A stretch of DNA of 64,000 nt, from NCBI RefSeq assembly GCF_034555375.1, contig NZ_CP140706.1:6086001-6150000 (forward strand), read 5' to 3'. The notes beneath the pieces are model-generated. The model saw only the letters and a program-made list of their open reading frames with translations. It was not told where the DNA came from and searched no databases. This DNA comes from Pseudomonas sp. B33.4. GTDB taxonomy: Bacteria > Pseudomonadota > Gammaproteobacteria > Pseudomonadales > Pseudomonadaceae. Of this stretch, positions 9,735 to 57,124 are shown piece by piece. Each line of letters starts with the position of its first letter. Within the stretch, counting starts at the first letter, position 1. A program made the translations under genes and the position numbers.

Positions 9735-10403
9735 ATGATCGATCTCGCAACCTGGAACCTCAGCGTTCCCGTTGGCAGCCCGCCATACACCGTCGAAACC
9801 TCCAAACTGGTGAACGGCTTCAAAGATCAGTACTTCCATTCCGACACCGGCACCTTGTTCTTCTGGTCACCGGTTACCGGGTCAAAAACCGAAAACGCCA
9901 TTTATCCGCGCACCGAACTGCGTGAAACCTACAGCAACGGCACCCTGCGCAACTGGTACTACCCGGACGCCGACAACCTGCTGCGCGCGACCCTCACGGT
10001 GAACAAAGTGCCGAGCTCCGGCAAGATCGTCATCGGCCAGATTCATGCTTATGAAAGCCAGAAGCCGATGGTCAAACTTGAATACCAGTACAAGACCAAA
10101 ACCGAGACCGGCAACTTGGTTATCAAGGTACGCATGCATCCGGATGACGACGAGAGCCGCGTCATCACCCTCGCCACCGGGATCAAACTGGATCGCGAAT
10201 TCAACTACCTCATCCACCTCAGCCCCGGCGGTGCGTTGGGTGTCAGTGCGGCGGGATATCAGTGGGATTCACAGATAAGTGCGACCTGGCGCAACAAGCC
10301 GTTGTACTTCAAGGCTGGGGTTTATGTGCAGGACAACACCGGGTATACGAGTGAGGGTGGGCAAGTGACCTTCTCCAAACTCGACATCGATCACGACAAA
10401 TAA
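9735..10403 (+). CDS. Polysaccharide lyase family 7 protein (alginate lyase)
   Basis: The 222-residue protein has the three PL7 signatures in order: RTELRE (about residue 57), QIHA (about residue 102) and YFKAGVYVQ (about residue 195), which carry the catalytic Arg, Gln/His and Tyr of the beta-jelly-roll alginate lyases. It should cleave alginate by beta-elimination. No signal peptide is present: the protein begins MIDLATWNLSVP directly after a good ribosome site (GGAAGAA). Similar short signal-less PL7 lyases are known in P. aeruginosa (the PA1167 type, from memory). Export or a role at lysis is therefore open. Confidence 0.9.
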   Translation: MIDLATWNLSVPVGSPPYTVETSKLVNGFKDQYFHSDTGTLFFWSPVTGSKTENAIYPRTELRETYSNGTLRNWYYPDADNLLRATLTVNKVPSSGKIVIGQIHAYESQKPMVKLEYQYKTKTETGNLVIKVRMHPDDDESRVITLATGIKLDREFNYLIHLSPGGALGVSAAGYQWDSQISATWRNKPLYFKAGVYVQDNTGYTSEGGQVTFSKLDIDHDK

Positions 10404-10415
10404 CCCAATCCCCAC

Positions 10416-10507
10416 GGTAGGAGCTGCCGAAGGCTGCGATCTTTTGATCTTGTTCTTGATTCTGAAAAGACAAAATCAAAAGATCGCAGCCTTCGGCAGC
10501 TCCTACC
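10416..10507. repeat. REP pair, GGAGCTGCCGAAGGCTGCGA family
   Basis: Inverted REP pair with the CCGAAGG variant, just downstream of the PL7 gene. Confidence 0.9.
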
Positions 10508-10518
10508 TTTAAACAGTG

Positions 10519-10860
10519 CTGTTTAGATCTGTCGGCGGTTACTTCCGGATGCCTACAACACCTTGCGTCGTTGCCTACCGCTACGCCAGAATCCGCCGGC
10601 TTGTGCGCCTGGCGGGCCATCGGTAACTTGATTCGCGTCACTGATTTCCAGTGATCGGGTTTAGTAGCCCGTGGTTTCAAGCGTTGTGCACAAGCATCTG
10701 TCAGTCAGGTATTCCCATACCTGCGCTTGATGGTAGCTGTGCGCAGGGCACCTTCGGGTGCGCCGGCTTGCTCGAAACCCCGGTCTACTAACCTGCGTAC
10801 AGTTGCCTCCACTTTGATTTAGTAGCCAAAGCGGGGGCACTCCAATCAGGTTTCGAGCAA
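10519..10860 (+). ncRNA. Structured leader of DUF6124 gene, copy 1 (candidate cis-acting RNA)
   Basis: This 342-bp stretch is homologous to 56791-57124 (minus strand), and both precede a DUF6124-type gene. Helices readable here are TCACTG/CAGTGA (10638-10643/10649-10654), CGGG/CCCG with loop TTTAGTAG (10656-10671), CAGGTAT/ATACCTG (10706-10712/10717-10723), a UUCG-capped GCACC/GGTGC stem (10748-10761), and GCTCGAAACC/GGTTTCGAGC (10770-10779/10849-10858). The last covers the likely ribosome site (AGG at 10848-10850), and its distal arm ends 2 nt before the ATG. Inside it, CTACTAA (10785-10791) can pair with TTAGTAG at 10819-10825 or with the identical TTAGTAG at 10661-10667. Four of these pairings show compensatory changes in copy 2. 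Function as a riboregulator is inference. Confidence 0.7.
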
Positions 10861-11223
10861 ATGACAAAATCAACGCCACACCCGCCAGAAACAGATCCCG
10901 CATCCCCCTACGAATCCCTCGATTCCAAAAAACTCAACGACGCCGCCGAACGCGCCCTCGACCATTACCTCAAACCCTCCGCCTTCATCATGGCCAGCAC
11001 GCATAAACCCGAGCCCATGTACCTCGCCAACCCGAAGTACAACACCGAATCGCTGCTGGCCAACGCCAGCGAAACCCTGGGCTCAGCCAGCGAAATGCTC
11101 AACAACTTCGCCGCCATGCTCGACACCTCACACCGCAAGACCGCACTGGGCATCGCGCAGGTGGTCATGCTTGGAGAACTGGCGGTGAATCAGGCACTGG
11201 ATCATGTCGAACTAAAGGAATAA
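10861..11223 (+). CDS. DUF6124-type small protein, copy 1
   Basis: The 120-residue product has the family pattern: a proline-rich start (TPHPPETDPASPYESLDSKK), then AAERALDHYL, a variable spacer, and a C-terminal predicted helical pair (NTESLLANASETLGSASEM and KTALGIAQVVMLGELAVNQAL). No signal peptide or membrane segment is seen. Function is unknown; the family appears confined to Pseudomonas as far as I know. A paralogue with about 60% visible identity is encoded at 56425-56790 behind the same leader. A strong terminator follows directly. The family name is from memory. Confidence 0.82.
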   Translation: MTKSTPHPPETDPASPYESLDSKKLNDAAERALDHYLKPSAFIMASTHKPEPMYLANPKYNTESLLANASETLGSASEMLNNFAAMLDTSHRKTALGIAQVVMLGELAVNQALDHVELKE

Positions 11224-11234
11224 CCGCCCACAAA

Positions 11235-11260
11235 AAACCCGCCTCATGGCGGGTTTCTTA
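11235..11260. terminator. Rho-independent terminator after DUF6124 gene
   Basis: AAACCCGCC, loop TCAT, GGCGGGTTT followed by CTTAAG. This hairpin and its upstream bases (ACCGCCCACAAAAA) are nearly identical to the fba terminator at 12243, so the two bracket the accessory patch as direct repeats. Confidence 0.85.
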
Positions 11261-11307
11261 AGCCAAATGGACTAAATGTTCCGCATACGCAACATCGACA
11301 TCAAAAT

Positions 11308-11481
11308 GTGACGAGCGCAACATGGAATGACTCTCCTTTAATCACCCGTCTCGGTATTCAACTACACGAAAAACGTATAAATCGTGGCCTGACGCAGGCG
11401 CAGCTTGCCGATCTAGCGGGACTGACACGATACAAGCGAATAAAAGGGGACAAAGACACAAAAAAGGGAACGGAATCGTGA
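11308..11481 (+). pseudogene. Truncated XRE/HipB-type HTH regulator
   Basis: Reading from GTG at 11308, the frame encodes ITRLGIQLHEKRINRGLTQ followed by AQLADLAGLTRYK, a clear first half of an XRE-family helix-turn-helix. It then runs into a low-complexity tail (RIKGDKDTKKGTES) encoded by a GGGGACAAAGACACAAAAAAGGG sequence and stops after 57 codons. The rest of the HTH (usual xVSxxExGxxxP) is missing. The tail sequence, with its matching CCGCCCC at about 11492-11498, resembles the edge of REP-transposase (RAYT) type elements, so an insertion or deletion may have cut the gene. No ribosome site is evident. I see this as a remnant, not a working regulator. Confidence 0.5.
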
Positions 11482-11727
11482 TAAATAAATCCGCCCCTTT
11501 TTTTTTGCGATTTCACCGAGATCTTAATCAAACAAATCGACCAATTTGACATTGCCTCCTTTTGCCACTTCCTTACTTTATTAAAAAACCAGAACCCTTA
11601 TAGCGAAAAATATTAAAACCTGTCATTTATTACAGGTTACCTGCAACAACTTCTCACCTAATCTCATCGACGTAATACGAGACAACCTATTTGACTTTAA
11701 TACTTGAACACACAGAAGGTAAACATC
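11482..11727. other. AT-rich upstream region of orphan gene
   Basis: This AT-rich stretch contrasts with its GC-rich surroundings. It contains an inverted repeat AACCTGT/ACAGGTT (11617-11623/11632-11638) that could be an operator, TTGACA at 11546 and TTGACT at 11691 without well-spaced -10 partners, and AAGG (about 11717-11720) as the ribosome site of the next gene. Confidence 0.4.
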
Positions 11728-12075
11728 ATGAAAACTTACAATGGCTTCGTATTTAACGCCAGCGAGGAGCATGCCGCCACACTCAAATTCGACGATTTAG
11801 TCCAGCAAAATGGCAACATAAGCAAAGGCTACATGGACTATTGGGGACTTGACTTCGTCGTCACTGGCACCTATACAAAGCCCACCAGGGCCTTTACTCT
11901 CCAAGCGAAATCAGACGCCAAAAATAGAGATGAGCTCAACCATGGCCCGAGTTCTCTGACTATTGCCATGAAATCATCTGATGGAACCGATAGTTACTTG
12001 GAAGGTACAGTTACCGTTAAAGCAGGCGGGCAGAATGCAGGCCAGACCTATGGAATCAAATTCACAAAAGGCTGA
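11728..12075 (+). CDS. Orphan hypothetical protein, AT-rich
   Basis: The 115-residue protein (starts MKTYNGFVFNASEEHAATL) is not one I recognise. It is polar, rich in Thr, Ser, Gly and Lys, and its alternating pattern (FVVTGTYTKPTRAFTLQAKS, LEGTVTVKAGGQNAGQTYG) suggests a small all-beta fold. No signal peptide or membrane segment is present. ATG at 11728 is preferred to the upstream ATG at 11704 because AAGG lies about 7 nt before it. Codon use is more AT-rich than the neighbours, and it sits between duplicated fba-terminator sequences. Together these suggest recent acquisition. Confidence 0.6.
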   Translation: MKTYNGFVFNASEEHAATLKFDDLVQQNGNISKGYMDYWGLDFVVTGTYTKPTRAFTLQAKSDAKNRDELNHGPSSLTIAMKSSDGTDSYLEGTVTVKAGGQNAGQTYGIKFTKG

Positions 12076-12109
12076 CATCCTTCATTACCTATGAAACAGG
12101 ATGAATCAG

Positions 12110-12190
12110 TTAACCTTACACTTAGCCGCCCCTTCAGATAACGCTGGTATATAGCCTCCAGCGAGATCAGCTTAATATCCGAAGCATTAT
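12110..12190 (-). pseudogene. Decayed duplicate of the fba 3' end
   Basis: Read on the minus strand, about 27 codons match the last codons of fba at 12294-12376: NASDIKLISLEAIYQRYLKG against [20 protein letters not shown]. Several differences are synonymous (GAA/GAG, GCG/GCT, ATC/ATT), so the fragment diverged while it was still coding. A 1-bp deletion then frameshifts the end. Upstream codons of fba are absent. Confidence 0.75.
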
Positions 12191-12242
12191 GGGTTGCTCT
12201 TACTTTTAGATGACTTCGTCAGGCGACATAACCGCTCACAAA

Positions 12243-12268
12243 AAACCCGCCTCACGGCGGGTTTCTTT
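12243..12268. terminator. Terminator of fba (bidirectional)
   Basis: AAACCCGCC, loop TCAC, GGCGGGTTT with A-run on one side and CTTTT on the other, 23 bp beyond the fba stop codon. Nearly identical to the hairpin at 11235. Confidence 0.85.
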
Positions 12269-12290
12269 TAAAGCAGTTCAACACTCAGGC

Positions 12291-33490: not shown

Positions 33491-35620
<2,130 letters not shown>

Positions 35621-56790: not shown

Positions 56791-57124
56791 CTTCAGGTTC
56801 CGAAATAAAGCTGGAACCACTTCTCTGCTAAAAGAAGGGGTGGCAGCTGAACGCAGGTTAGCAGACCGGGGAACCTAAGGAAGCCGGCGCGCCGAAGCGC
56901 CCTGCGCACAGCCGCCATCGAATGCAGGCGCTGAGCCTGACGATGATGCATGTGCACCCTTAGATTAACCACGGGCTGCTAAACCCGATCACTGGGAATC
57001 AGTGACGGAATCAAGTTACGCAGCATGACCAAGGCGCACAAGCCGGCGGATTCTGGTGCATGCGTAGGCAGCGGCGCAAGGATTTGTAGGCTAGGGAGCC
57101 GTAACACCGGGTGTCTTTAAACAG
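56791..57124 (-). ncRNA. Structured leader of DUF6124 gene, copy 2 (candidate cis-acting RNA)
   Basis: Homologous to 10519-10860 on the other strand. On the minus strand its helices are TCACTG-type (56989-57005), CGGG/CCCG with loop TTTAGCAG (56972-56987), CAGGC/GCCTG (56925-56939), UUCG-capped GCGC/GCGC (56889-56900) and AGGTTCC/GGAACCT (56870-56876/56795-56801). The last ends 5 nt before the ATG and overlaps the likely ribosome site. CTGCTAA (56858-56864) can pair with TTAGCAG at 56825-56831 or 56976-56982. Where copy 1 has TTAGTAG twice and CTACTAA once, copy 2 has TTAGCAG twice and CTGCTAA once, so all three segments changed together. Confidence 0.7.

Follow-up and report, generated by a model that had tools for sequence, protein, structure and literature searches.

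The window considered here, the whole stretch of DNA that was analysed, comprises 64,000 nucleotides of Pseudomonas sp. B33.4. Within it a structured leader precedes a gene for a DUF6124 protein, and the locus raises the question of what kind of RNA this leader specifies. The original prediction was a translational switch or pseudoknot sensor, without a described RNA family, in which one segment has two alternative partners. The stretch 10601-10860 very probably represents a full C4 antisense module, of the kind known from phages P1 and P7, that has become part of the chromosome. C4 is a phage RNA, and phage P1 silences antirepressor genes with it. The family and anatomy of the element, its covariation, its conserved and specific complementarity, its copy number and its turnover are established here.

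Identity and anatomy of the C4 module

A search with Rfam (cmscan) identified RF01695, the C4 antisense RNA, at 10726-10813 of the plus strand with 70.8 bits against a gathering cut-off of 45. An existing Rfam entry thus explains the element, contrary to the view that no described family matched it. RF03163 (c4-a1b1, the a1/b1 targets) was placed at 10624-10675 with 27.2 bits, below its cut-off of 46.7. The Rfam search of 10400-11000 gave no riboswitch family at E <= 1, no aptamer-like conserved core was seen and nothing was found pointing to a ligand. Elsewhere in the window, the plus strand carries a match to the SAH riboswitch (RF01057) at 34089-34187, with 67.6 bits. With the Rfam C4 match and the layout of phage P1 in its place, the reading as a new riboswitch or pseudoknot sensor was rejected.

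The C4 fold consists of three stems (P1, P2 and P3) with 27 pairs, 16 of which are changed on both sides among 42 copies, a result equalled by 0 of 500 shuffles. Across these copies 96.6% of the cells are paired, and both-side changes occupy 122 cells compared with 34.4 in the shuffles. The outer stem takes part in this covariation, with both sides changed in nine of its 17 pairs. A covariance model made from the Pseudomonas copies recovers the C4 of phage P1 itself (44.5 bits). Immunity of the phage P4 CI type is based on seqA, seqB and seqC together with transcription termination. This type was set aside because the sequence agrees with the C4 model and has its b2 at the ribosome site, although the C4 module may conceivably include a termination component as well.

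The order of the module in the window is a1, b1, C4 (with b' and a'), a2, b2 and the gene (Table 1). The 10-bp inverted repeat of the original prediction, GCTCGAAACC and GGTTTCGAGC, is present with ten of ten pairs and ends 2 nt 5' of the ATG at 10861. Of the AGG said to lie inside its second arm, the GG is within the arm and the A, at 10848, is outside. The pairing of CTACTAA with both TTAGTAG segments was confirmed in the sequence, and the upstream TTAGTAG does sit in the loop of a hairpin formed by CGGG (10656-10659) and CCCG (10668-10671). The notion of a single segment with two partners applies to a' but was incomplete, as b1 had been overlooked: GGTTTCAAGC adds an upstream partner for the 10-nt arm, so that both a' and b' have two partners.

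Table 1. Features of the two C4 modules in the window, with the evidence for each
Feature	Position	Strand	Basis
Likely promoter, TTGTGC and TAACTT separated by 17 nt	10601-10606, 10624-10629	+	consensus match only, 6/12
5' hairpin TCACTG/CAGTGA, probable transcript start	10638-10654	+	sequence; retained in related loci
a1, TTAGTAG, upstream partner of a'	10661-10667	+	sequence; z -11.2 over 43 copies; positioned like P1 a1
b1, GGTTTCAAGC, upstream partner of b'	10673-10682	+	9/10 pairs; z -9.0; positioned like P1 b1
C4 antisense RNA	10726-10813	+	RF01695, covarying fold
RNase P cleavage site (predicted), 5' of GG 10732	10732-10733	+	analogy with P1 and Acinetobacter (PMC5320573)
b', GCTCGAAACC, pairs with ribosome site	10770-10779	+	sequence; distinct in 43/43 own-genome copies
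a', CTACTAA, second specificity segment	10785-10791	+	29 sequences in 43 copies
a2, TTAGTAG, downstream partner of a'	10819-10825	+	7/7 pairs; z -10.8
b2, GGTTTCGAGC, downstream partner of b'	10849-10858	+	10/10 pairs; z -14.3; overlaps Shine-Dalgarno GG
DUF6124 gene, 120 aa, target of the module	10861-11223	+	PF19619 70.2 bits, cut-off 27
Second C4 module (L035), own a' and b'	56836-56922	-	71.2 bits
DUF6124 gene behind the second module (L035), 121 aa	56425-56790	-	

A promoter-like layout (TTGT.., 17 nt and a -10-like hexamer ending 9-10 nt 5' of the hairpin) occurs in 18 of 26 copies, a count without shuffle control that covers the 26 of 43 own-genome copies where the hairpin pattern matched, with 17 of 43 unread. 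Directly 5' of the -35 hexamer there are two distinct conserved blocks, depending on the copy group, for example at 10584-10600 (GCCAGAATCCGCCGG versus CACAAGGTTTTCAG), which are possibly the sites of shared transcription regulators. Just 5' of the module, a near-perfect long inverted repeat is found at 10419-10506 (GGAGCTGCCGAAGGCTGCGATC...), which we take to resemble a Pseudomonas palindromic repeat element. Models of eukaryotic microRNAs match it below their cut-off on both strands, surely by chance.

The assignment of the gene to DUF6124 was confirmed by PF19619. The AlphaFold2 model of its protein is a helical hairpin (pLDDT 75.4, pTM 0.48), for which no PDB match was found at E <= 0.001. 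Four representative proteins gave no match to the PADLOC defence families at E <= 0.1, and DUF6124 had none in PHROGs; the DUF3077 protein of locus L010 matches two functionally unassigned phage families in PHROGs (1.1e-10 and 0.00087). The downstream proteins are not similar to Icd of phage P1. A toxin function for DUF6124 was considered but is without evidence and is not claimed.

Copies, partners and private codes

The original prediction spoke of both copies of the element. The window does hold two, on opposite strands, and the genome in total (6.6 Mb, one contig) holds 43 C4 matches, 42 of them above the cut-off, dispersed at a median spacing of 117 kb. For 33 of the 43, a DUF6124 match starts at most 330 nt downstream; four of the other ten have a DUF3077 match within 700 nt and six have neither. 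Seen from the genes, 33 of the 39 DUF6124 matches in this genome are preceded by C4. A scan of 37 downstream proteins at E <= 0.01 assigned 29 to DUF6124 and four to DUF3077, although one of these four falls slightly short of the curated cut-off (20.4 versus 21 bits). At loci L016, L046, L049 and L050, C4 precedes small proteins without a Pfam match, which by eye have a helical part like that of DUF3077 and DUF6124.

Within a set of 57 genomes (own, genus and order), C4 was found in 36, namely in 32 of 36 from the genus and in four of the remaining 21, and copy numbers in the relatives reach 42. DUF6124 and DUF3077 occur in 28 and 26 of the 57, all within the genus. In a sample of the phylum 42 of 299 genomes had a C4 match, 40 of them above the cut-off; the copy numbers of this sample are lower bounds, as 14 candidates were scored per genome. 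C4 was absent from the 14 control genomes. The 80 best of 183 DUF6124 loci from other Pseudomonas were also examined, and in 80 of 80 C4 precedes the gene by 46-57 nt. A limited search found no literature under DUF6124 and tentatively suggests that the chromosomal expansion, to about forty modules, may be an undescribed variant of a known RNA.

Specificity was assessed by comparing own with swapped partners. The a' and b' segments were taken by alignment columns, and the best duplex was computed against both flanks of every copy, 120 nt on the upstream side and about 75 nt on the downstream side, with energies that ignore accessibility. In the 43 own-genome copies the own pairings are stronger than the swapped ones for both segments and on both sides (z from -9.0 to -14.3; Table 1), and for each of the four pairings 0 of 5000 permutations was as strong. 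Three control segments of the C4 RNA reached |z| values up to 1.7. Four further genomes gave z from -6.1 to -16.4. The best 80 of the 183 loci in other, named Pseudomonas gave -13.4 to -18.1, values inflated by relatedness, as the control segments there range from -3.3 to +3.4.

The same results bear on the idea that C4 and DUF6124 are functionless passengers left over from old, decayed phages. C4 is a phage RNA, phages PAJU2 and CF74b share the layout (in CF74b before an annotated antirepressor), and there are broken copies in the genome: L012 (2293883) is without a2 and b2, L041 (1769799) has a stop in its gene, and L051 (1167377) combines a C4 below the cut-off with a gene fragment. Such an origin as debris is scarcely credible all the same, because complementarity has been retained or renewed in most copies and genomes, with no majority loss of the b'/b2 match, and the copies are dispersed. 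Moreover, DUF6124 is present in only one of 50,697 phage records (at the edge of the record), in 0 of 72,556 plasmids and in four viral contigs (close relatives only).

No b' segment recurs among the 43 copies of the own genome, nor among the 42 and the 27 copies of its two nearest relatives. A further two genomes have 38 distinct b' in 39 copies and 33 in 35, counting above-cut-off matches only (39 of 42 and 35 of 36). The repeated a'-b' sets, one in each of these two genomes, belong to neighbours 0.7-0.85 kb apart, and in one of the two a further b' is common to two copies with different a'. The proteins of L011 and L015 in the own genome differ at one of 119 residues, and both a' and b' are different. 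Within the first three genomes, 0 of 19 gene pairs with an identity of 90% or more have a b' in common, compared with 13 of 24 syntenic pairs; over five genomes the counts are one of 29 within and 16 of 59 between (Fisher 0.009), although the pairs are not independent. This pattern could also stem from gene conversion of the coding part.

The modules have been considered as one RNA-controlled regulon, in which C4 RNAs cross-regulate many DUF6124 genes through a shared class of a'. One a', GTCTACCAACC, is indeed common to nine of the 43 own-genome copies, and in about 11% of foreign pairs the duplex energy of b' reaches that of the own target. A regulon is unlikely, given that the b' over the ribosome site is distinct in every copy and that own pairs are much stronger on average. 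The own target is uniquely best of 43 for 23 copies when b' is paired with the ribosome region, and for nine, seven and five copies with b' upstream, a' upstream and a' downstream. As this holds for part of the copies only, some cross-pairing is expected, mainly via shared a'. The mean foreign b' energy is the same within genomes (-7.89) as between them (-7.85), so that privacy is visible only as an absence of repeats. Active avoidance of cross-talk was rejected on these equal energies, as partial cross-pairing is not rarer within genomes than between them.

A doubtful but conceivable reading of the private codes is that the modules form a chromosomal compatibility system, a heteroimmunity turned inward, with codes that are private in each cell and pass from species to species as the RNA cassette is exchanged, the gene itself being conserved. 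A resident C4 would silence every copy that shares its code, whether newly arrived or duplicated; only different codes could then be active together, and the dispersed copies would end up private. If this were true, the specificity segment would evolve like an incompatibility group or a mating type, unlike an ordinary regulator.

Alternative folds and predicted mechanism

The proposed mechanism begins with one transcript, which would carry a1-b1, the C4 RNA, a2-b2 and the DUF6124 gene. C4 would fold into its three stems, with b' exposed in a loop and a' in a single strand, and would probably be excised by RNase P as an RNA of about 77 nt; the GG at 10732-10733 stands where its 5' end would be expected. 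The processed C4 is expected to pair with the a2 and b2 segments on the mRNA from which it derives, thereby covering the ribosome site and blocking translation. As long as the outer C4 stem still awaits transcription of its 3' arm, a1-b1 could capture b'-a'; this fold would exclude the C4 stem and leave the ribosome site free. Since capture and C4 fold compete, the module is predicted to be bistable in the cell, resulting in escape (ON) or self-silencing (OFF). As each of about forty modules has its own b' and matching targets, each would silence its own gene. If this holds, about forty parallel antisense repressors operate on one scaffold in a single bacterium.

The claim of mutually exclusive pairings is borne out in part. 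Both sets exist, are conserved and covary, and the ribosome site lies under the downstream set. In silico the C4 fold cannot form alongside the upstream set, and the exclusivity itself remains a prediction, strongest for the growing chain. When the nascent RNA ends at a', its lowest-energy fold contains a1:a' and b1:b' in 42 of 43 copies; with the upstream parts swapped, the mean of 20 shuffles was 8.75 and the highest 14 of 43. The same nascent fold appears in 39 of 42 and 27 of 27 copies of two relatives (own sequences only, without the swap control) and in the leader of phage P1. For the full leader the lowest-energy folds are mixed: 18 of 43 copies adopt a1-b1 (0.55 when swapped) and 22 of the 43 form the C4 stem (35.5 when swapped). 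Given these mixed folds, and with computations that cover pairings other than loop-loop contacts, exclusivity stays a prediction.

The leader may alternatively be a translational switch acting only in cis, releasing no C4, in which a' and b' choose between a1/b1 and a2/b2, possibly on a signal. Nested alternatives are certainly available in the window: over 10630-10866 the fold with a1:a' and b1:b' has -98.3 kcal/mol, the C4 stem -89.6 and the cis pairing b':b2 with a':a2 -88.1. The preferred fold flips with a few nucleotides at the ends, being a1-b1 for 10630-10880 and cis b':b2 for a slightly longer stretch. The covarying part, however, is the outer C4 stem, which a switch of this kind does not need in that form, and C4 folded alone forms this stem in 43 of 43 copies. 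An aptamer-like core is likewise not seen, and C4 is a separate, processed RNA in P1, where it acts in trans, and in Acinetobacter baumannii (PMC5320573). A switch acting purely in cis is accordingly quite improbable.

Code exchange between species and comparison with known systems

The nearest relative, G019 (neighbour gene of 2190 nt 92% identical), has 30 loci that are reciprocal by their flanks. Twelve have the same a' and b', one the same b' only and 17 another b', which means a different b' at over half of the syntenic loci. In most of the changed loci the module is 52-75% identical and the coding region 79-94%; the changed loci also include three with small changes (module 93-97%) and three with broken or fragmentary genes (L041, L045 and L051). 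A second relative, G011 (88%), has the same code at two of 15 loci and a changed one at 13, several of them with weak flank evidence. Among the changed pairs of the two relatives, b' binds its own ribosome region more strongly than the swapped one in 16 of 17 and 13 of 13 cases (p 2e-4 and 1e-4). Codes move between related species, and the genes under them change little.

The window's own locus adjoins a gene that is presumably polysaccharide-lyase-like, a name given from reading alone, and usually fba. Together with the orthologous loci of 28 other genomes, two of which were assigned by the lyase-like gene only, it yields four kinds of b', with 13 loci of type A, 9 of type B, 6 of type C and 1 of type D. 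Types B-D are 45-58% identical to the window from a2 to the ATG, compared with 76-97% in the gene and 80-97% upstream. A natural change with compensation is found in L102, where b' is GCTAGATACC and b2 is GGTATCTAGC in place of GCTCGAAACC and GGTTTCGAGC. The z values of b' in the 28-locus set (-4.9 and -7.7) are inflated by relatedness, as one control reached +4.8, and those of a' (0.2 and -1.4) are uninformative because a' is constant at this locus. A 27-tip tree of the two genes next to the module, in which some branches have weak support and whose genes may recombine, requires 13 changes of b' type versus 12.64 +- 1.25 with shuffled labels. The tree of the DUF6124 gene itself (29 tips) requires 14 versus 13.58, and neither tree holds phylogenetic signal in the four types.

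The region between the DUF6124 gene and fba (11224-12290) varies strongly by species, fba being almost adjoining or several kb off. It contains a 57-aa frame at 11308-11481 of the plus strand, which by eye resembles the start of a helix-turn-helix protein and is apparently cut short. A small BACON-like protein (0.042, below the cut-off) occurs in six of 26 loci with fba.

If the proposed mechanism holds, natural alleles that differ in code and not in gene would be a ready set for studying the specificity of short RNA pairings, and the C4 set would be useful for RNA parts without cross-talk. The role of DUF6124 and DUF3077 under repression by their own RNA, and the driver of the rapid exchange of codes, would become testable questions.

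The closest known system is the immI region (c4, icd and ant) of phages P1 and P7, which has the same order of a1, b1, C4, a2, b2 and gene, the same C4 fold and a b2 at the ribosome site. The distance from the end of C4 to the start codon is 50 nt in P1 and similar here. P1 differs in having a single phage locus, which controls icd and the antirepressor and has a C1 operator at its promoter, whereas here about forty chromosomal copies precede genes of the DUF6124/DUF3077 type and icd and ant are absent downstream. Among the two families that come from Weinberg et al. 2010 (PMC2864571), RF01695 is passed by 42 of the 43 copies and RF03163 fails its cut-off.

A. baumannii AB5075 has 21 similar copies of 'Group 1' C4-like sRNAs, with RNase P-type processing apparent in RNA-seq (PMC5320573). 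The likeness lies in the many C4-like copies per genome and the variable a' loop. In the available part of that report, the a' loop is the sole variable part and no upstream or downstream partners are given for each copy. Here, by comparison, b' varies most, a1-b1 and a2-b2 accompany each copy, and the gene family is another one.

The Pseudomonas aeruginosa phages PAJU2, R656 and CF74b carry a C4 that is 77.5% identical to that of the window, and in PAJU2 and CF74b partners resembling a1/b1 and b2 are present, as here. The C4 of these phages precedes an 861-nt gene, annotated as an antirepressor in CF74b and as hypothetical in PAJU2, where the window has DUF6124. The simplest story would be that a phage immunity module was taken over for chromosomal genes, the presumed direction being from phage to chromosome.
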